A DNA stretch of 31,736 nucleotides from a virus. Both the position numbers and the translations under genes were made by a program. The stretch is taken from positions 1 to 31,736 of IMG/VR virus record IMGVR_UViG_3300030101_004409. The stretch is one strand, 5' to 3'. Of this stretch, positions 3,434 through 24,037 are shown piece by piece (position 1 is the first letter of the stretch; every line of letters starts with the position of its first letter). Below the pieces are notes generated by a model, which saw only the letters and a program-made list of their open reading frames with translations, was not told where the DNA came from and ran no database searches.

Positions 3434-3612
3434 TGGCTAAAAATTTAAAAGGTGTTAGTCTTAAAGGGTTAAACAAAACGCAAAAAAGACAAATGAGCAG
3501 ACACAAAGTTCATCATACCAAAGCACATTTAAGAGGTATGGCAGCAGCTATGCGTAAAGGTAAAACTTTTAAACAAGCACACAACGAAGCAATGAGAAAA
3601 ATTGGAAAATAA
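3433..3612 (+). CDS. Small strongly basic protein
   Basis: This 59-residue frame is Lys/Arg/His-rich (for example RQMSRHKVHHTKAHLRG, then GKTFKQAHNEAMRKIGK) and predicts two helices. It is joined to both neighbours by TAATG overlaps. The C-terminal half (MAAAMRKGKTFKQAHNEAMR) resembles short helical motifs of small phage basic proteins whose function is unknown. Its position among other basic genes in the virion module suggests a nucleic-acid-binding or virion-packaged protein; that is inference. Confidence 0.65.
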   Translation: MAKNLKGVSLKGLNKTQKRQMSRHKVHHTKAHLRGMAAAMRKGKTFKQAHNEAMRKIGK

Positions 3613-3935
3613 TGCATTCAAAAAGACAAAAAGCATTACTTAAAAAATACGGGTTAAAGGGTGTTAATAAACCAAAAATGACGCCCAAACACCCAAAGAA
3701 AAAAGCTTTGGTATTAGCAAAAGTAGGACCGCATAAACTTAAATTGATCCGATTTGGAGCTCAGGGTATGGGGCATAATTATAGTGCGGGTGCAAGAAAA
3801 AGCTTTAAAGCAAGACACGCAAGAAATATTAAAAAAGGTCCAACTTCAGCAGCTTATTGGGCTGACAGGTTTTTATGGAGCGGTCCAAAAGGAAGAAAGA
3901 AAAAACCGCCTAAATCACAAAAAAGGGTTTTGTGA
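3612..3935 (+). CDS. Basic conserved phage protein (KSFKARHARNI family)
   Basis: The protein has 107 residues. A basic N-terminus is followed by a conserved-looking core: KLIRFGAQGMG, then ARKSFKARHARNIKKG and SAAYWADRFLWSG (about 55-95). I know this core from small proteins of unknown function in many marine and large phages. The family is not catalytic as far as is known. It is coupled on both sides (TAATG at 3612; TGATG at 3935) and is the largest member of the basic run. Confidence 0.75.
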   Translation: MHSKRQKALLKKYGLKGVNKPKMTPKHPKKKALVLAKVGPHKLKLIRFGAQGMGHNYSAGARKSFKARHARNIKKGPTSAAYWADRFLWSGPKGRKKKPPKSQKRVL

Positions 3936-17756: not shown

Positions 17757-18032
17757 ATGGATAAAAAATACCCAATACATGAAACATTGGATAACTATAA
17801 ATACAGATTAAAAAGAAATGAAGTCTTAAGAGCTCCTGACAAAATGACTTTTGATCCTGAGTTCGCAGCTATTCAGTATGAGCATAAAATGATTATTGCA
17901 AACACAAGTTTAAGACAATATTTTAAATATAATAATGATGTTAAATTTATTTTATTTTTTAGTATTTATATTCTTATAGTTGCAATTTGTTTATTTTTGC
18001 TTTATCTTGTAGAAGATGCAACAATCATTTGA
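17757..18032 (+). CDS. Small protein with a C-terminal membrane anchor
   Basis: This 91-residue protein has a soluble, charged N-terminal two-thirds and one hydrophobic segment at about residues 63-85 (FILFFSIYILIVAICLFLLY), so it is probably tail-anchored in the inner membrane. GGAG precedes the ATG. It could be a superinfection-exclusion or host-modulating protein, but nothing in the sequence proves this. The next gene starts 17 bases before its end. Confidence 0.6.
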   Translation: MDKKYPIHETLDNYKYRLKRNEVLRAPDKMTFDPEFAAIQYEHKMIIANTSLRQYFKYNNDVKFILFFSIYILIVAICLFLLYLVEDATII

Positions 18033-18312
18033 ATATTATATTGATGATATATACTCAAATTCAGAAAATAGTATTCTTTATGGTAAAGCTATAATGGTTG
18101 CAATGTCTAATAATCACAAGCAATCTTGGACAAAAAAACAAAAAGAAGTATATTTTTACCACGACACAATGACATACGCAAGAATTGGTAAAAAATACGG
18201 AATTACAGCTCAATCTGTTAGCAGGATATATAAAAGAGCTGTTAAAAAATTAAATATAATAACACAGAATCTTCTCGCTGATCGTTGTTGTTATAATACC
18301 AAAGCCATATAG
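18016..18312 (+). CDS. Helix-turn-helix protein resembling sigma factor region 4, candidate late regulator
   Basis: The C-terminal half of this 98-residue protein has QSWTKKQKEVYFYHDTMTYA, RIGKKYGITAQSVSRIYKRA, and VKKL, the pattern of sigma-70 region 4 or of phage ArpU/RinA-like late activators (recognition helix around GITAQSVSRIYKRA). It is the last gene before the terminator at 18321 and immediately upstream of the operon starting at 18465, a usual place for a late-transcription regulator. Candidate binding sites are the repeats at 18358-18373 and 18435-18450. Confidence 0.65.
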   Translation: MQQSFEYYIDDIYSNSENSILYGKAIMVAMSNNHKQSWTKKQKEVYFYHDTMTYARIGKKYGITAQSVSRIYKRAVKKLNIITQNLLADRCCYNTKAI

Positions 18313-18320
18313 GGCTAAGT

Positions 18321-18363
18321 GGGGCGGGTTTTCTCAATATTCATTTTACCGCCCCAAATTTTA
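18321..18363 (+). terminator. Rho-independent-like terminator after the early operon
   Basis: GGGGCGG (18321-18327) pairs with CCGCCCC (18349-18355), followed by AAATTTT (18356-18362). The loop is about 21 bases. It lies just after the HTH gene stop and separates the early operon from the modification/packaging operon. The long loop makes it less ideal, but the GC stem in such AT-rich DNA is striking. Confidence 0.75.
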
Positions 18364-18463
18364 GGGTTATAATCAAAAAAAATTATATCTAGCAATATCA
18401 ACACTTACAGCAATGTAATCTCGAAAATACCATCATTTAGGGTTTAAAATTTACATATATGTA
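18358..18463 (+). promoter_or_regulatory. Promoter/operator region of the modification and late operon
   Basis: The region between the terminator and the next start has no gene. It carries two near-identical segments, ATTTTAGGGTTATAAT (18358-18373) and ATTTAGGGTTTAAAAT (18435-18450), and a perfect 12-bp palindrome TACATATATGTA (18452-18463) directly against the next ATG. The next gene has no Shine-Dalgarno sequence, so a leaderless or regulator-controlled start is possible. Regulator binding is inferred. Confidence 0.55.
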
Positions 18464-18464
18464 G

Positions 18465-18707
18465 ATGACGGACTCAAAAATTGACAAAATACTTAATCAA
18501 ATTGATCAAGAATTAGAAAATAGCCATGTAGGGCATGAAGCATATAATAAAACAAAAAATATGCGAAAGTTCAGTCAAGGTAATATAGAAAACATAGTTT
18601 TAGCAGATCCGAACGGAGACGAGGAATATACACCGCCTGATGATTGGGACGCACACTCTACTTTTGATGAAGAAAATTATAGCATAGGATATGATGAAGA
18701 TAATTGA
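18465..18707 (+). CDS. Small acidic hypothetical protein, first gene of the modification operon
   Basis: This 80-residue protein is acidic, with EYTPPDDWDAHSTFDEENYS near its C-terminus and a helical N-terminus. No family is recognised. It lacks a clear ribosome binding site, the ATG following a palindrome by one base. It overlaps the ParB-like gene by 17 bases, so it is likely coupled to it. It may be an accessory or adaptor for the modification cassette, by location only. Confidence 0.55.
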   Translation: MTDSKIDKILNQIDQELENSHVGHEAYNKTKNMRKFSQGNIENIVLADPNGDEEYTPPDDWDAHSTFDEENYSIGYDEDN

Positions 18708-19284
18708 AAAAAACCCGAACGAATTAATAGAAGCTGATTACAACCCTAGACAATTGTCAGAAAAAGCTTACGAAGAATTAAAAGAATCATTAGAAAATTT
18801 TGGCTTTGTAGATCCTGTTTTGATCAACAAAAACAAAAACAGAAAAAACATTATTATTGGCGGACACCAAAGAGTGAAAGTTGCTAAAATGTTAAACATT
18901 AAAAAAGTACCATGCCTTGAATTAGATCTTTCTGAGGAAGAAGAAAGAGAACTAAATATCAGATTAAATAAAAATACTGGAGATTGGGACTGGGACATGT
19001 TAGCAAATAATTTTGGCACAGAACAGCTCTTAGATTGGGGTTTTGCAGAACAAGAACTAGGTGTTGAGTCGAAACTTACATTTGAAGTTTCTAATAACTA
19101 CAATGAAACCATAGAATATCCAGAGGAAGCTGAATCAAGTCATGTACGCATGATACAATTGTTTTTAAATGATGACACTGAGCCGATCTTTAAAAAAATG
19201 GAATTGAAACTTAGAGAAGAATTTAATACAGACAACTTGACTGACACTGTCTTTAAAGCATTAGAGAAATTAACAAATGGCTAG
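18691..19284 (+). CDS. ParB-like N-terminal domain protein
   Basis: This 197-residue protein has a ParB/sulfiredoxin-like domain: ADYNPRQLSEKAYEELKESL (16-35), GFVDPVLINKN and the nucleotide/DNA-binding IIGGHQRVKVAKML, then LDLSEEEERELNIRLNKN. Phage ParB-like proteins often neighbour DNA modification genes and may recruit or guide the enzymes on DNA, or act as CTPase/nuclease-like factors. The C-terminal part (about 120-197) has no recognised domain and could bind partners. It overlaps the TET/JBP-type gene by 8 bases. Either of the two tandem ATGs (18691 or 18694) may be used. Confidence 0.82.
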   Translation: MMKIIEKNPNELIEADYNPRQLSEKAYEELKESLENFGFVDPVLINKNKNRKNIIIGGHQRVKVAKMLNIKKVPCLELDLSEEEERELNIRLNKNTGDWDWDMLANNFGTEQLLDWGFAEQELGVESKLTFEVSNNYNETIEYPEEAESSHVRMIQLFLNDDTEPIFKKMELKLREEFNTDNLTDTVFKALEKLTNG

Positions 19285-20158
19285 AGAAATATATTTAAAA
19301 CCTGAATTAACAGATAAAGAAGCTAGTGAATTAGCTGGAGCATTGTTGAATGAAACAAGCTATAAAATTCTTATTGATTATGACGCAGATGTATATGACG
19401 AAGTTTCAGGTAATTGTATTGCAAAATTTAGAAAAAATGTTATACCAGCAAACATAGCAAAAACAGCATACCAAAATTTAAAATCAGCAGCTGGTGCAAC
19501 AAATAACAGAAATAAAGCTTCAGGTAAACAAGGAAGAAAAAGAATTAAATCTGATGGCACAATATCAAATACTAATCATGGAGATCAGGTAAACAGCGGT
19601 ATTATTGGCTATTTCGATAGAAATGTGAGATTCCCATATTGCAGACAAACAGCTTTTAATCAAAAAGAGTTTGATAAATTTAAAAAAGCTTATGGCATAA
19701 TAAAATTTGTTGATAATAAATATTCAGAATTAATGCCTGAGCATTATGCACTGCAAAGAGAAGTTGCTGATAATACTTCACAAGACTTTGTAATTAAAGA
19801 TACAGCATTCACGACAATCACTGTGAATAAAAATTGGCAAACAGCCGTTCATACTGATAAAGGCGATTTTGAAAAAGGTTTTGGAAATTTAGTTGTATTA
19901 AGAGAGGGCTTATATGAGGGCGGATATTTTGTTATTCCTCAGTGGGCAGTTGCTTTTGATATGCAAAATTGTGATCTATTATTGTGTGATGTTCATCAAT
20001 GGCACGGAAATACACCGATAACAAAAGTAGATGAAAAAGCTACAAGAATATCATTAGTTATGTATTACAGACATAATATGCAAAAATGTGGCACAGCTAT
20101 TGAAGAACAAGAGTTTGCAAAACAAAGACAAATAAGATCGGGGGAAAGTCTTTATTGA
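19277..20158 (+). CDS. TET/JBP-family 2-oxoglutarate/Fe(II) dioxygenase (base oxidase)
   Basis: This 293-residue protein should oxidise the methyl group of a pyrimidine in DNA using Fe(II), O2 and 2-oxoglutarate. The catalytic pattern is clear: TAVHTDKGD with His192 and Asp194 binding iron, GFGNLVVL, EGGYFVIPQW, DVHQWHGNTP with the distal iron ligand His240 or His243, and TRISLVMYYR with Arg257 for 2-oxoglutarate. The upstream SGIIGYFDRNVRFPYCRQTA segment is also typical of the TET/JBP group. It lies in an operon with kinase, transferase-like and amidotransferase genes, and overlaps them. Whether the substrate is thymine (JBP-like) or 5-methylcytosine (TET-like) is not settled by the sequence. 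Confidence 0.82.
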   Translation: MAREIYLKPELTDKEASELAGALLNETSYKILIDYDADVYDEVSGNCIAKFRKNVIPANIAKTAYQNLKSAAGATNNRNKASGKQGRKRIKSDGTISNTNHGDQVNSGIIGYFDRNVRFPYCRQTAFNQKEFDKFKKAYGIIKFVDNKYSELMPEHYALQREVADNTSQDFVIKDTAFTTITVNKNWQTAVHTDKGDFEKGFGNLVVLREGLYEGGYFVIPQWAVAFDMQNCDLLLCDVHQWHGNTPITKVDEKATRISLVMYYRHNMQKCGTAIEEQEFAKQRQIRSGESLY

Positions 20159-20772
20159 TGTGCGGAATTGTAGGTTATAGCTGTGAAAACCCTAAACAAA
20201 ATCATATACAGATTTTACAGGATATCATAGCAGAAAGCTCAATCAGGGGCATACATAGTTTTGGGTATAGTTTTGTTAAGGATAAAAAATTAATTACAAG
20301 AAAATACCACGATCTCAAAGAAATTAAATTACCTTTAACTAATAAGCTTATTTATCATAACAGGTATTCAACTTCGGGTGATTTTAAAAATCATAAAAAT
20401 AATCAGCCAATACATATAGATAATATGTCTTTGGTTTTCAATGGTGTGATTGATATGCGTACCAAAAAACAAATGGAAAGTGCATACAATATTTTTATGG
20501 AAACTGATAATGACGGGGAAATATTGATTCAAAGGTGTGGAAATGATAAAAAACTAATAGAGAGGTTTGTAAATGATATTAGGGGAAGTTTTGCAGGTAT
20601 TATACTTGATGAAAAAGAAAACTTATTTGTAATAAGAAATAAGAAAAGACCTTGCTGGATATTAGAGTATGATAATGCAAAGTTTGTAGCTTCAACAAGA
20701 GACATTTTTAAAAGAGTTGATAGTGCTTTTTCGCCAAAGCCGTTAGAAGCTAATAAAATATATGAAATATAA
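20158..20772 (+). CDS. Class II glutamine amidotransferase domain protein
   Basis: This is a free-standing class II (Ntn-hydrolase) glutaminase of 204 residues. The ATG at 20158, in a TGATG overlap, puts Cys next to the initiator Met (MCGIVGY), so Met removal exposes the catalytic N-terminal cysteine. Other motifs: SIRGIHSFGY, YHNRYSTSGD, NNQPIHIDNMSLVFNG and ETDNDGE. There is no fused synthetase domain, so ammonia must go to another protein or the amide be transferred directly. Its place between a TET/JBP oxidase and the kinase suggests it supplies nitrogen for a modified base. A TTG at 20155 would add one Met and spoil the N-terminal cysteine. Confidence 0.85.
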   Translation: MCGIVGYSCENPKQNHIQILQDIIAESSIRGIHSFGYSFVKDKKLITRKYHDLKEIKLPLTNKLIYHNRYSTSGDFKNHKNNQPIHIDNMSLVFNGVIDMRTKKQMESAYNIFMETDNDGEILIQRCGNDKKLIERFVNDIRGSFAGIILDEKENLFVIRNKKRPCWILEYDNAKFVASTRDIFKRVDSAFSPKPLEANKIYEI

Positions 20773-21169
20773 ATTAAGACATGCAACACGAACAGACGCA
20801 GATTTTTTAAAAGATCTTTATAAACAAGACAAAGAACACATAGGATCTTTCAATTTATATCAAGTATGGGATAAATATTTAACTTCAAGTACAAATTATA
20901 AATATTTGATTTGTGAAGATAAGGGCTTTGTTAGATATGGTTTTAGTAAAAAATATAGCAGCTGGATTATACATGAAATAGCCGTATTAAATGATTTCAA
21001 AAGACACGGCATAGCTAGATATATTGTAGAAAATTTACCTAGACCGCTTATGTTGAAATGTAATTGTGATAATGAGATTGGCAATAGATTTTATGAAAAG
21101 ATTGGTATGACAAAAGTAGGTAAAACCAAAACCCGTAAAGGAATTGAACAGAATATTTGGCAATGGTAA
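20762..21169 (+). CDS. GNAT-family N-acetyltransferase
   Basis: This 135-residue protein has the GNAT core: IHEIAVLNDFKRHGIARYIV, where RHGIAR is the acetyl-CoA pyrophosphate-binding Q/RxxGxG/A motif, and NEIGNRFYEKIGMTKVG as the C-terminal motif. It would transfer an acyl group from acyl-CoA to an amine. In this cassette a plausible substrate is an aminated base in DNA or a small amine donor. It overlaps the amidotransferase gene by 11 bases and the next gene by 7. Confidence 0.85.
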   Translation: MKYKLRHATRTDADFLKDLYKQDKEHIGSFNLYQVWDKYLTSSTNYKYLICEDKGFVRYGFSKKYSSWIIHEIAVLNDFKRHGIARYIVENLPRPLMLKCNCDNEIGNRFYEKIGMTKVGKTKTRKGIEQNIWQW

Positions 21170-22038
21170 ATGAATATATTGATTACCACATAAGATCCTC
21201 AGAAGCAAAAGACATTGATCCAGCTAATGATTGTCTGAAATATATCAGCAATAGATTTGAGTTAAACATTGAACAAAGATATTGGTTGGCTTTTTTATAT
21301 GCTTGTTGTTATTCAGGAAGCACAGTGTATTACATATACAATGAGTTTCCAGATTTTGAAAATGTTGATGAGGACAGGTTAAGTAGGTGGTGGGATAGCA
21401 ACAAGCACAAAACTATTTTTCAAACAGATCGTCTGAAAGTAAAAAGCTTTAATGAGTTTGTTAATATATTTAAATCATATAAAAGCTTATTAAACGGCTT
21501 AACACAGGAAGAATATTTTAATTCTTTGAAACAGCCAAACAGACAGATGACATATGATAATTGTTATCAGGATCTTATGAAAATACACTACTTCGGCAGA
21601 TTCACAATGTTTATTTACTTGGAAATGGTAAATGTTTTGACAGATTTTGATTTAGAACCAACATACTTAGACCTAAAAAACGCCGAAAGCTGTAGAAATG
21701 GTTTAGTTTACAGCATTGAAAGATTTGATTTAGATACACACGGCAAGAAAAAAAGATTAAATAAAAATGAATTAGGATATTTACAATATCAATTTGAGCT
21801 AGTTAAAGAAGAAATAGAACAGCTTGATATACAACACACAAATATTTGGAACATTGAAACTACACTTTGTGCTTTTAAGAAATTTAAAAAGGGCAAAAGA
21901 TATGTAGGTTATTACATAGATCGTCAGCGAAAAGAAATAGAAAAAATGCAAGATTTAGTTTCAGACGGGGTTAATTGGAATGTTTTATGGGATTTCAGGA
22001 ACGAAACTTATGATAAACAATGGTTAAAAGAGTTGTAG
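21163..22038 (+). CDS. Helical protein resembling amino-acid:DNA transferase / alpha-glutamyl-putrescinyl-thymine pyrophosphorylase
   Basis: This 291-residue all-helical protein carries RFELNIEQRYWLAFLYACCY (31-50), FQTDR (86-90), HYFGRFTMFIYLEM (142-155), ESCRNGLVY (175-183) and YYIDRQRKEI (230-239). These segments fit my memory of the aGPT-PPlase group proposed for phages that make alpha-putrescinyl or glutamyl thymine; members have since been linked to transfer of amines onto activated 5-hydroxymethyluracil in DNA. The kinase right downstream fits this. I chose the ATG at 21163 over a TTG at 21157. Identification is by remembered motifs and context, so moderate. Confidence 0.55.
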   Translation: MVNEYIDYHIRSSEAKDIDPANDCLKYISNRFELNIEQRYWLAFLYACCYSGSTVYYIYNEFPDFENVDEDRLSRWWDSNKHKTIFQTDRLKVKSFNEFVNIFKSYKSLLNGLTQEEYFNSLKQPNRQMTYDNCYQDLMKIHYFGRFTMFIYLEMVNVLTDFDLEPTYLDLKNAESCRNGLVYSIERFDLDTHGKKKRLNKNELGYLQYQFELVKEEIEQLDIQHTNIWNIETTLCAFKKFKKGKRYVGYYIDRQRKEIEKMQDLVSDGVNWNVLWDFRNETYDKQWLKEL

Positions 22039-22553
22039 CAATTGGCGGTGTGCCATGCTCTGGAAAAACAACACTTGTTAGAGAAATATTAAACAAAGTG
22101 CAAGATGAGCCGAAATTTTTTAAATATGGGCTTCTAAGGGGTTATATATCAGGCGACACAGCAATACTTGGCATATACCAGCAAAATGATACTTTTGGTG
22201 GAACTGACAAGCTTTCTATGGCAGTCCAAAAAGATTATGAGAAGTTTTTAGAAATAACAGACTATAATGTTTTATTTGAGGGCGATAGGCTGTTTACAAA
22301 AAAGAATTTATTACACTTACAGGACAAATATGAGCAGAAGTTTATTATTTTAGATCTTGATAAGAAAACATTAGAAAAAAGACATGAGCAAAGAAATGAT
22401 ACTCAGTCAGAAAAGTTTAAAAAGTCTAGGCAGACAAAGATAAATAATATACTCAGTGATGAGTGTTTGAAACCCGATTTGGAAGTAATTCAAATAACGG
22501 ATAAACAGAAAGCAGGGGAAATAGCTGATAAAGTTATAAAGTTCCTGTTTTAA
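22020..22553 (+). CDS. P-loop kinase resembling 5-hydroxymethyluracil DNA kinase
   Basis: This 177-residue protein has Walker A GGVPCSGKTT (9-18), a distinctive FGGTDKLSMAVQKDYEKFL (59-77), the acidic VLFEGDRLF (84-92), an arginine-rich lid region (KRHEQRNDTQ) and SRQTK (136-140). The GTDxLSMxVQ and FEGDR combination is characteristic, as I recall, of phage kinases that phosphorylate the hydroxymethyl group of 5-hydroxymethyluracil in DNA. It starts 19 bases inside the preceding gene, a strong overlap, so the two are coupled. A generic nucleotide or small-molecule kinase is the alternative. Confidence 0.7.
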   Translation: MVKRVVAIGGVPCSGKTTLVREILNKVQDEPKFFKYGLLRGYISGDTAILGIYQQNDTFGGTDKLSMAVQKDYEKFLEITDYNVLFEGDRLFTKKNLLHLQDKYEQKFIILDLDKKTLEKRHEQRNDTQSEKFKKSRQTKINNILSDECLKPDLEVIQITDKQKAGEIADKVIKFLF

Positions 22554-22569
22554 CAGGGAATTAACAGGT

Positions 22570-22860
22570 ATGGCGAAGTTTAAAAAAGGGCAGTCAGGTA
22601 ATCCAAAAGGGCGACCAAAAGGCACAACAACATTAAATAGTTTGTTAAAAAAAATAGGATCTGAAGAAGTCAAAGGAACTGATGCTGATAAATTAGAGTT
22701 TATTATGCGTAAAGTATTTGATTTTGCAGTAAAAGGCGAAAGCTGGGCTGTTCATTTCATAGCAGACAGGCTTGAGGGTAAACCAAAACAGACTGTCGGT
22801 ATTCACGAGGTAAATGAAGATCCAATAAAAGTGTTTGATATTGATGAAGTGGAAGATTGA
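22570..22860 (+). CDS. Small terminase-like DNA-binding protein (DUF5681 type)
   Basis: The N-terminus of this 96-residue protein, KFKKGQSGNPKGRPKGTTT, is the signature of a phage protein family (DUF5681) found just before the large terminase and thought to be the small subunit. It would bind genomic DNA and regulate packaging. The following helical part ends in an acidic tail. It overlaps the large terminase gene by 17 bases, which supports the pairing. Confidence 0.72.
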   Translation: MAKFKKGQSGNPKGRPKGTTTLNSLLKKIGSEEVKGTDADKLEFIMRKVFDFAVKGESWAVHFIADRLEGKPKQTVGIHEVNEDPIKVFDIDEVED

Positions 22861-24037
22861 TGACACGAGAAAGTCTATATTGCATGATAAATCAAGATAC
22901 AAAATTTTGGTTTGTGGTCGCAGGTGGGGCAAAACTTTTTTTTCACTGATATGGCTTTTACATACTGAATTAAAACCAAATGAAAGACGATGGATAATTT
23001 ATCCAAGTTATAGACAGGCTAAAATGGTAGCTTGGGCTTTGGTTAAAAGAATTTTTGCAGGAAAAGATGTTAAGGTAAATGAGTCTGAATTATCAATCAC
23101 TCTTAATAATGGGGCTAAAATAGAATTAAAAGGAGCTGATAAAGAGGACAACATAAGAGGTGTCAGTCTTAATCGAGTAGTATTAGATGAATATGCTTAC
23201 ATGAAACCAAATGTATGGGGAGAGATCGTTCAACCCATGTTAGCAGAAACAAAGGGACAAGCATTGTTTGTCGGTACACCAACAGGAATACAAAATCATT
23301 TTTACGATATGTATGTTAAAGGACAAAGCAATAACGCAGACTATAAGAGTTGGCAATTCACTACTATTGACGGCGGGTTTATTTCCGCAGAAGAAATAGA
23401 CAGTGCCAAAAAAAACTTGGACCCTAAAACTTTTAGGCAGGAATATGAAGCAAGTTTTGAAACAGCAGCGAACAGATGTGCATATAACTTTGACAGAAAT
23501 ATACATGTGAAAGAAATGGATAAAACACCTAGACTTTTTTGGGGTATAGACTTTGGTGTATCAAGCTATATGACAGCAATATTAATGTGCGAAAATACAA
23601 AGGGCGAAGTTTATGTATTTGATGAGATTGGCTTACAAAACTCAAATACTTTTGAATTAGCTTTAATGATGAAAAAAGTTGCACCTAATGTGCCAGTGTA
23701 CCCAGATCCAGCAGGGAAAGCAAGAACAAGCAATAGCACAAAGTCTGATCATAGTATATTGCGTGAGGCAGGATTTACAGTGATTAGTAGAAAAGCAAAC
23801 CCGACACAGAAAGACAGATTAAATGCATTGAACAGGATGCTGGGAGATGCAAGAGGTAAAACAAAGCTTTTTATAGATCCTAAATGTAAAAACACAATTA
23901 GAGATCTTGAATTAACAACATTAGAAAATGGACATATTTTGAAAACAGAAACTTTATCACACTTTCTTGACGGAATTATGTACCCCATTGAATACAGATA
24001 TGGTTTCAAAGGCAAAGCAAACACAATAGAGTGGTAA
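22844..24037 (+). CDS. Terminase large subunit
   Basis: This is the DNA packaging motor and nuclease, 397 residues. Walker A is GRRWGKT (25-31), Walker B is RVVLDEYAYMK (about 107-117), the motif VGTPTG follows as coupling motif, and the RNase H-like nuclease has WGIDFGVSSY, VYPDPAGKAR and SHFLDGIMYP with the metal-binding aspartates. It starts at ATG 22844 in preference to an in-frame TTG at 22835. Size is at the short end for the family. Confidence 0.95.
   Translation: MKWKIDDTRKSILHDKSRYKILVCGRRWGKTFFSLIWLLHTELKPNERRWIIYPSYRQAKMVAWALVKRIFAGKDVKVNESELSITLNNGAKIELKGADKEDNIRGVSLNRVVLDEYAYMKPNVWGEIVQPMLAETKGQALFVGTPTGIQNHFYDMYVKGQSNNADYKSWQFTTIDGGFISAEEIDSAKKNLDPKTFRQEYEASFETAANRCAYNFDRNIHVKEMDKTPRLFWGIDFGVSSYMTAILMCENTKGEVYVFDEIGLQNSNTFELALMMKKVAPNVPVYPDPAGKARTSNSTKSDHSILREAGFTVISRKANPTQKDRLNALNRMLGDARGKTKLFIDPKCKNTIRDLELTTLENGHILKTETLSHFLDGIMYPIEYRYGFKGKANTIEW

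Follow-up and report, generated by a model that had tools for sequence, protein, structure and literature searches.

A candidate activator-dependent late promoter with paired repeats beside a sigma region-4-like regulator gene in an uncultured phage and its relatives

Virus record IMGVR_UViG_3300030101_004409 was analyzed over its whole length, a window of 31,736 bases with a G+C content of 33%, and the element considered here is a putative late promoter lying directly behind a small regulator gene. In our own gene list, the gap that follows this gene (18313-18464, 152 bases) is the longest non-coding one from 13956 to the contig end. The regulator gene, the gap and the first gene beyond it comprise the following features.

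18016..18312, + strand: sigma-70 region-4-like helix-turn-helix (HTH) protein, proposed late activator; 98 amino acids (aa); Pfam Sigma70_r4 3.1e-7
18320..18356, + strand: GC stem-loop, weak terminator-like; 8-bp stem, 21-nt loop
18358..18373, + strand: upstream repeat copy ATTTTAGGGTTATAAT, proposed operator U; AGGGTTA kept in L006, L008, L010 and L011
18376..18412, + strand: conserved box B1; core CAATATCAACACTTACA at 18393-18409 (CAATATCwACACTTACA); same box before parB elsewhere
18435..18450, + strand: downstream repeat copy ATTTAGGGTTTAAAAT, proposed operator D, overlapping the -35 region; from the paired repeat comparison
18456..18461, + strand: -10-like hexamer TATATG, then TAG; inside the palindrome 18452-18463; aligns with TATAAG/TATATA-TAG in relatives
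18464..18465, + strand: putative transcription start near TA(G)ATG
18465..18707, + strand: p80, first late-operon gene; acidic, 80 aa, no assigned family; homologues in relatives

An HTH gene had been proposed here by a first-pass annotation of the sequence, and the 98-aa open reading frame confirms it: residues 48-79 match Sigma70_r4 with 30.2 bits against a gathering cutoff of 24.1. An AlphaFold model built on 17 sequences has a mean pLDDT of 81.8, with each ten-residue block across residues 21-90 averaging at least 84. The model resembles the -35-binding domains of sigma factors (3hug, 1ku7 and 1rio_H) at Foldseek probabilities of 0.98-1.00, all with E-values of 0.1 or worse, and superposes on 1rio_H with a root mean square deviation of 0.6 over 49 columns. 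Region 4 is the sole above-cutoff Pfam match in the 98 aa, with no region 2; the product is a sigma region-4-like HTH protein standing by itself rather than a complete sigma factor. No named Ltr, RinA or ArpU late-regulator profile appears in its Pfam, NCBIfam and PHROGs match lists, and its match to PHROG 36 (“transcriptional regulator,” 9.4e-4) has no further name attached.

Sixteen proteins from relatives were aligned with the 98-aa protein at 16-95% identity, the distant rows lying at 16-27% identity to it. The regulator gene adjoins the element in the window group and in L066, L062, L081, L078, L090, L191 and L203; in L178, L180 and L187, other genes intervene and the distance reaches about 1.5 kb. 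Wherever the phage contigs reach far enough, a region-4-like HTH gene is found upstream of the box, L175 excepted. Searches of the phage collection with the regulators of L089 and L066 and with the promoter region of L078 were all negative and thus pointed to no host. In L191, a 53-aa protein (3454-3615) that is barely more than a sigma region-4 HTH (Sigma70_r4_2, 1.3e-6) precedes the promoter; it is possibly the smallest version of the regulator.

The repeats do not seem to form the core of the element; the most conserved part is the box between them, which the first-pass annotation had missed. Across seven alignment rows (the window, L006, L011, L008, L010, L009 and L007), two conserved blocks were observed, gapless from the box to TAG: an A-rich stretch with CAATATCwACACTTACAGC, and GTTwAAAATTTmCATATATrTAG. 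The second block is not merely start-codon context, since the L011 start codon lies farther from it. In L007, conservation starts at the box and the upstream DNA is unrelated; over 1-234, the contig switches at the box to an unrelated open reading frame that matched no Pfam or PHROGs family, and this junction is either a mosaic exchange or an assembly join. A coding remnant was considered as the nature of the box and rejected; the L007 box lies inside the frame open from upstream, and the other rows were judged by alignment reading only. Also rejected on inspection was an IHF site (consensus WATCAANNNNTTR): the TATCAA-N3-TTA of the box is one base short of the consensus spacing, and other groups differ in the AA.

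The same box precedes parB in L066, L062, L067, L089, L081, L090 and L078, distant phages in which no Tet gene was seen by tblastn. ParB loci were collected by a ParB-alignment scan (the best 80 of 397). Of the 79 loci with at least 150 bases upstream, 26 have both the box and TAG ahead of parB, whereas the frequency of the pattern in the remainder of these loci predicts 0.74. The pattern was tuned and widened on some of these loci, seven of the 26 belong to the close group of the window itself and several more are near copies, so that they cannot be counted as 26 independent cases. L191 and L245, which the pattern misses, carry the box with a slightly different start signal.

The distance from the box to TAG (from the C of CAATAT to the A of TAG) falls into few classes in the 26 sequences: 70 in 12 of them (the window group, L066, L062 and the L178-L187 set), 59-60 in six, 63 in five, and 57 in three, for which the anchor is less sure. 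The L220 type, at 63, has four extra box bases before ACTTA, and its ACTTA-to-TAG distance of 49 is the same as in the 59-60 group. The two main classes are 10-11 bp apart, or approximately one helical turn. An unrelated phage group (L140 4500-4523; also L134, L136 and L142) has a 24-base box copy, TCTAACAATATCTACACTTACAGC, identical to that of L133 and sitting between two diverging gene sets; its distance is 64, half a turn out of register.

The repeats flank this box. The first-pass annotation had reported two near-copies 77 bases apart at 18358 and 18435; both are present, and the 9-mer they share, TTTAGGGTT, sets their in-register spacing at 76. It had further proposed a search for AGGGTT ahead of late genes in relatives. 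As a motif of late genes in general, AGGGTT was rejected: it occurs in the window at chance (13 seen, 10.9 expected), and only this phage group uses the word. The window contains a single occurrence of the 23-base promoter segment.

To compare relatives, each 9-mer before TAG was matched to the phage's own upstream flank and to single-base shuffles of that flank. The 18 representatives leave out the near copies L006, L010, L066, L185, L203, L220, L231 and L232, and L007, L067, L184, L186, L189, L192, L221 and L230 are likewise not among them. The 9-mers 23-30 bp before TAG match the upstream flank with combined Z values of 4.4-7.8, inflated by the relatedness of the phages, with a peak at offset 25; at other offsets, the combined Z is 3.0 or less. 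By this comparison, the repeats are a real pair. The repeat words differ by phage group, and the two copies within a group mostly match each other. The word is AGGGTT in the window group, TTTTGTAG in most others and CCTAAT, only 6 bases, in L175; AAAACCTCC is a further group-specific word.

The strongest sign that one protein reads both copies is a joint change of copies and protein, seen in one sister comparison. L191, L192 and L203 have AAAACCTCCA in both copies, and their sister L189, which had escaped the box pattern, has AAAACCTTTAA in both, with a spacing of 64 bp throughout; from L191 to L189, AAAACCTCCA is replaced by AAAACCTTTA in both copies. The recognition helix differs at five of its ten residues, VSPQALYDRL in L189 versus ISESAVYKRL in L191. 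The L203 regulator differs from that of L191 at 8 of 51 residues, none of them in the recognition helix, and the L191 repeats are retained.

In-register repeat spacings fall in 55-59, 64-66 and 74-78 bp. They are 76-77 in the window, L006, L008 and L010, 78 by another word in L011, 74-77 in L066, L062, L180, L187 and L178, 66 in L175, 64 in the L191 type, 59 in L245, and 55-57 in L078, L090, L081, L089 and the L220 type. A Rayleigh test at 10.5 bp gave P of about 0.001 on 11 chosen values, which left out L011 (78), L089 and L081 (56), L245 (59) and the out-of-register L182, L185 and L235. With the misfits restored (17 values, one row per group), R is 0.64 and the nominal P is 0.001. Because the sequences are related, a repeat spacing in about whole helical turns is taken as likely, not proven.

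Downstream of the second repeat, 13 of 20 sequences have a hexamer preceding TAG that agrees with TATAAT at 4 or 5 of 6 positions. No -35 was recognized: with spacers of 15-19, the best TTGACA match reaches 4 of 6 in one of 20 sequences, 3 in three and 1-2 in 16, so that most lie below the random mean of about 3. The downstream repeat overlaps the expected -35 place. The missing ribosome binding site at 18465, already noted in the first pass, was confirmed; 21 of the 35 ATG-start genes chosen for this check have a Shine-Dalgarno (SD) core of at least 4. TAG-ATG without SD is found in the window, L006, L008, L010, L007 and L175, not in L011, and the first gene of L175 is a p80 homologue, thus the p80 mRNA is probably leaderless or nearly so. 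In other groups, a short hairpin starts just after TAG (GAAGGgcaaCCTTC in L066; also L078, L089 and L220), which fits a transcription start there.

Behind the late promoter, the short-spacing group (L078 6977-7100, L089 2017-2120, L081, L090 and L235) shares a conserved 5′ leader, about 110-120 nt long. Its hairpin is GGCTGGAAAANCAGCC, and GCCTG/CAGGC in L090 is a compensatory change. Rfam scans of the L089, L081 and L090 leaders gave no convincing match, and single folds of L078 and L089 gave modest shuffle z-scores. The window itself has no Rfam match at gathering scores, and none was convincing at E ≤ 5 in 18230-18520.

Two other parts of the proposed switch were the palindrome and the terminator. 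The palindrome TACATATATGTA exists at 18452-18463, one base (G18464) short of the ATG at 18465 that it was said to touch. As an operator it was rejected and is considered incidental: the window holds 11 twelve-base palindromes versus a mean of 12.85 in 20 shuffles, and L008, L010 and L011 carry CCATATATATAG in its place. The terminator placed after the HTH gene corresponds to a GC stem-loop at 18320-18356 that folds better than shuffles (z of -2.6); its tail is AAATTTT, the terminator scan called none there, and it is weak.

The original idea of a switch for the modification and late operon survives as the best-supported reading, with regulator, repeats and promoter recurring before a parB-led late operon in many, not all, relatives. 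We consider it likely that the regulator is a late activator acting on an activator-dependent late promoter in 18358-18464 with paired operators. The reading draws on the anatomy, conservation and spacing of the element, on the concerted change of both copies in the one sister comparison and on the absence of a -35; binding, activation, the start site and the role of the box are what we infer from sequence.

Under this reading, the 98-aa protein would recognize the same short sequence twice, at a site about 75 bp upstream and at a second site over the -35 place. At this second site, it could take over from sigma region 4 of the host polymerase or recruit that region; the promoter would consist of a -10-like TATATR with no -35. 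The box CAATATCwACACTTACA is nearly constant across groups with differing regulators and repeats, thus it is probably read by a different conserved partner. This partner may be a host protein that bends DNA or a core component of the complex, and it would bring the two operator sites together. As the distances vary by about whole helical turns, the bound proteins would stay on the same DNA face. The product would be a single late mRNA from at or next to the p80 AUG, encoding base-modification, packaging and structural genes. A more specific version, which we offer only tentatively and regard as doubtful in its entirety, is a class of phage late promoters assembled as a three-point complex: like operators separated by 5, 6 or 7 helical turns would each carry a sigma-region-4 mimic, one replacing sigma region 4 at the -35 place, and a box bound by a host bending protein would join the two. 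In this version, phage divergence would exchange the recognition helix and both operators together while box, -10 and phasing stay fixed, and the hypermodification mRNA would be leaderless here.

Several observations weigh against the favored reading. On the side of the regulator, L175 has box, repeats and promoter and no recognized regulator in its 2.7 kb upstream, and L151 has a regulator 47% identical but a different downstream gene order and no box by scan. At E ≤ 0.01, Pfam gives no region 4 match for the regulators of L220 and L089; both were entered as seeds of the family hidden Markov model on grounds of position and likeness, so the unity of the family rests on alignment and gene position. 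Furthermore, the L189 regulator differs from that of L191 at 17 of 51 residues overall, and the helix change is not isolated.

On the side of the DNA, the window's repeat pair alone has P = 0.082 versus dinucleotide shuffles of the gap flanks, and, taken singly, only 7 of 26 sequences have P < 0.05, of which L225, L226, L231 and L232 form one close group. The best pair is out of register in L182, L185 and L235, L011 keeps the upstream copy with a decayed downstream one (CGTTTAAAAT), and L007 has no upstream copy. Where a terminator lies just upstream (L185), part of the upstream copy (TTTTTT) is also the terminator U-run, which inflates the repeat matches. The phasing has P of about 0.02 on six merged values, the P of about 0.001 coming from related sequences. 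Finally, 53 of the 79 ParB loci have no box plus TAG, and in 7 of the 20 sequences the hexamer preceding TAG shares only 1-3 of 6 positions with TATAAT.

Alternatively, the regulator could bind the central box as a class I-type upstream activator, the flanking repeats being -35-like or sites of other factors. The L090 box is, on inspection, a perfect inverted repeat (CTAAGTCT-N10-AGACTTAG), nearly so in L089, and box-to-TAG distances of 59-60 and 70 are one turn apart, as are class I activator sites, which lie at -61.5 and -71.5 for CRP. However, the box stays nearly constant while the regulators drop to 16-27% identity to the window's, and it is in the flanking repeats, not in the box, that the group differences and the joint change are found; we therefore think this arrangement unlikely.

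It is more improbable still that the region serves as an origin of replication or as a site of packaging or attachment, with the repeats as iterons, terminase sites or integrase sites. In favor of such a role are the repeats and AT-rich box upstream of terminase genes, the 24-nt box copy in an unrelated phage group and the change of the L007 flank to other DNA at the box. Against it, the distances to the -10-like TATATR-TAG are set, the large terminase gene lies about 4.4 kb from the region in the window, and no integrase was seen among the genes read, a set smaller than the full gene content of the window. An attachment site in particular was rejected, as 84,980 bacterial and archaeal species, each represented by a single genome, gave only 4 hits when scanned, about the chance number estimated for equal base frequencies. 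An ordinary or constitutive host sigma-70 promoter, with the HTH protein acting elsewhere and the repeats being drift in AT-rich DNA, would agree with the non-significant window pair, the 10-of-12 sigma-70-type match upstream at 18345-18373 and the lack of one good copy in each of L011 and L007, but is equally improbable in view of the positional conservation across groups, the concerted L191/L189 change and a conserved promoter with no -35.

Beyond p80, which has no Pfam or PHROGs match at E ≤ 0.1, the predicted late operon continues as follows.

18691..19284, + strand: ParB_N-domain protein; Pfam 5.3e-9
19277..20158, + strand: Tet/JBP oxygenase; Pfam Tet_JBP 9.3e-25
20155..20772, + strand: glutamine amidotransferase-type protein; Pfam GATase_7 1.2e-9
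20762..21169, + strand: GNAT acetyltransferase-like protein; Pfam Acetyltransf_10 1.9e-6
21157..22038, + strand: amino acid:DNA transferase (ADDT); Pfam ADDT 3.9e-19
22020..22553, + strand: P-loop kinase-like protein; PHROG 800 6.4e-13 (described as terminase small subunit); AAA_18 and Ploopntkinase3 matches under cutoff
22570..22860, + strand: DUF5681 protein, by position a possible small terminase; Pfam 6.3e-16
22835..24037, + strand: terminase large subunit (TerL); PHROG 2 1.1e-43

The ParB_N, Tet/JBP dioxygenase, GATase, GNAT, ADDT and P-loop kinase genes are consecutive over 18691-22553 and are together predicted to hypermodify a DNA base. In the putative pathway, the Tet/JBP enzyme might oxidize this base, perhaps thymine, which would then be phosphorylated and joined to an amino acid. 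Other Tet-carrying phages have an HTH or sigma-like gene of 162-181 aa upstream of parB (L014 4166-4693; L016 4350-4895; L018 1121-1666; L019 3870-4358); in a Pfam scan of L014, L016 and L019, a region 4 model was matched only by L019, other HTH models were matched by L016, and L014 had no hit.

If the favored reading is correct, it provides a concrete late switch for a group of uncultured phages, and a natural series of matched regulator/operator pairs for the sigma region-4 fold as a separate activator. It would also place the Tet/ADDT base-modification set under late control, consistent with modification presumably taking place between replication and packaging. Judged by titles and abstract openings, none of the papers listed in the literature searches deals with this promoter architecture.

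Among known systems, the PBSX-type positive control sigma-like factor (NCBIfam NF005385), which we take to be linked to PBSX late genes, has a region-4 part that matches weakly (0.0015 for the window protein, 5e-6 for that of L185). Both proteins score far below its cutoff of 136 bits (18.2 and 26.3, respectively), and the window protein, unlike that factor, consists of the region-4 part plus one N-terminal helix only. Class I/II activators such as CRP likewise have sites at whole-turn spacings upstream of the -10, whereas here two like sites flank a third conserved box and the DNA-binding domain is sigma region-4-like.

The closest parallel is to Ltr of phi13 and Alt of TP901-1, phages of Gram-positive hosts. 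These late regulators are small, are encoded upstream of the late promoter they activate and act via direct repeats upstream of the start site, with a single late transcript reported for RinA/Ltr types (PMC13123087). The present element similarly has a small regulator gene upstream of a predicted late promoter with direct repeats. Four direct repeats are present in phi13 (-107 to -42) and in TP901-1 (-76 to -32) (PMC13123087). In contrast, two copies 55-78 bp apart here flank an invariant box, one copy lies over the -35 place, and the spacing runs in about whole turns. The late promoter is best read as Ltr/Alt-like in function and unusual in architecture.
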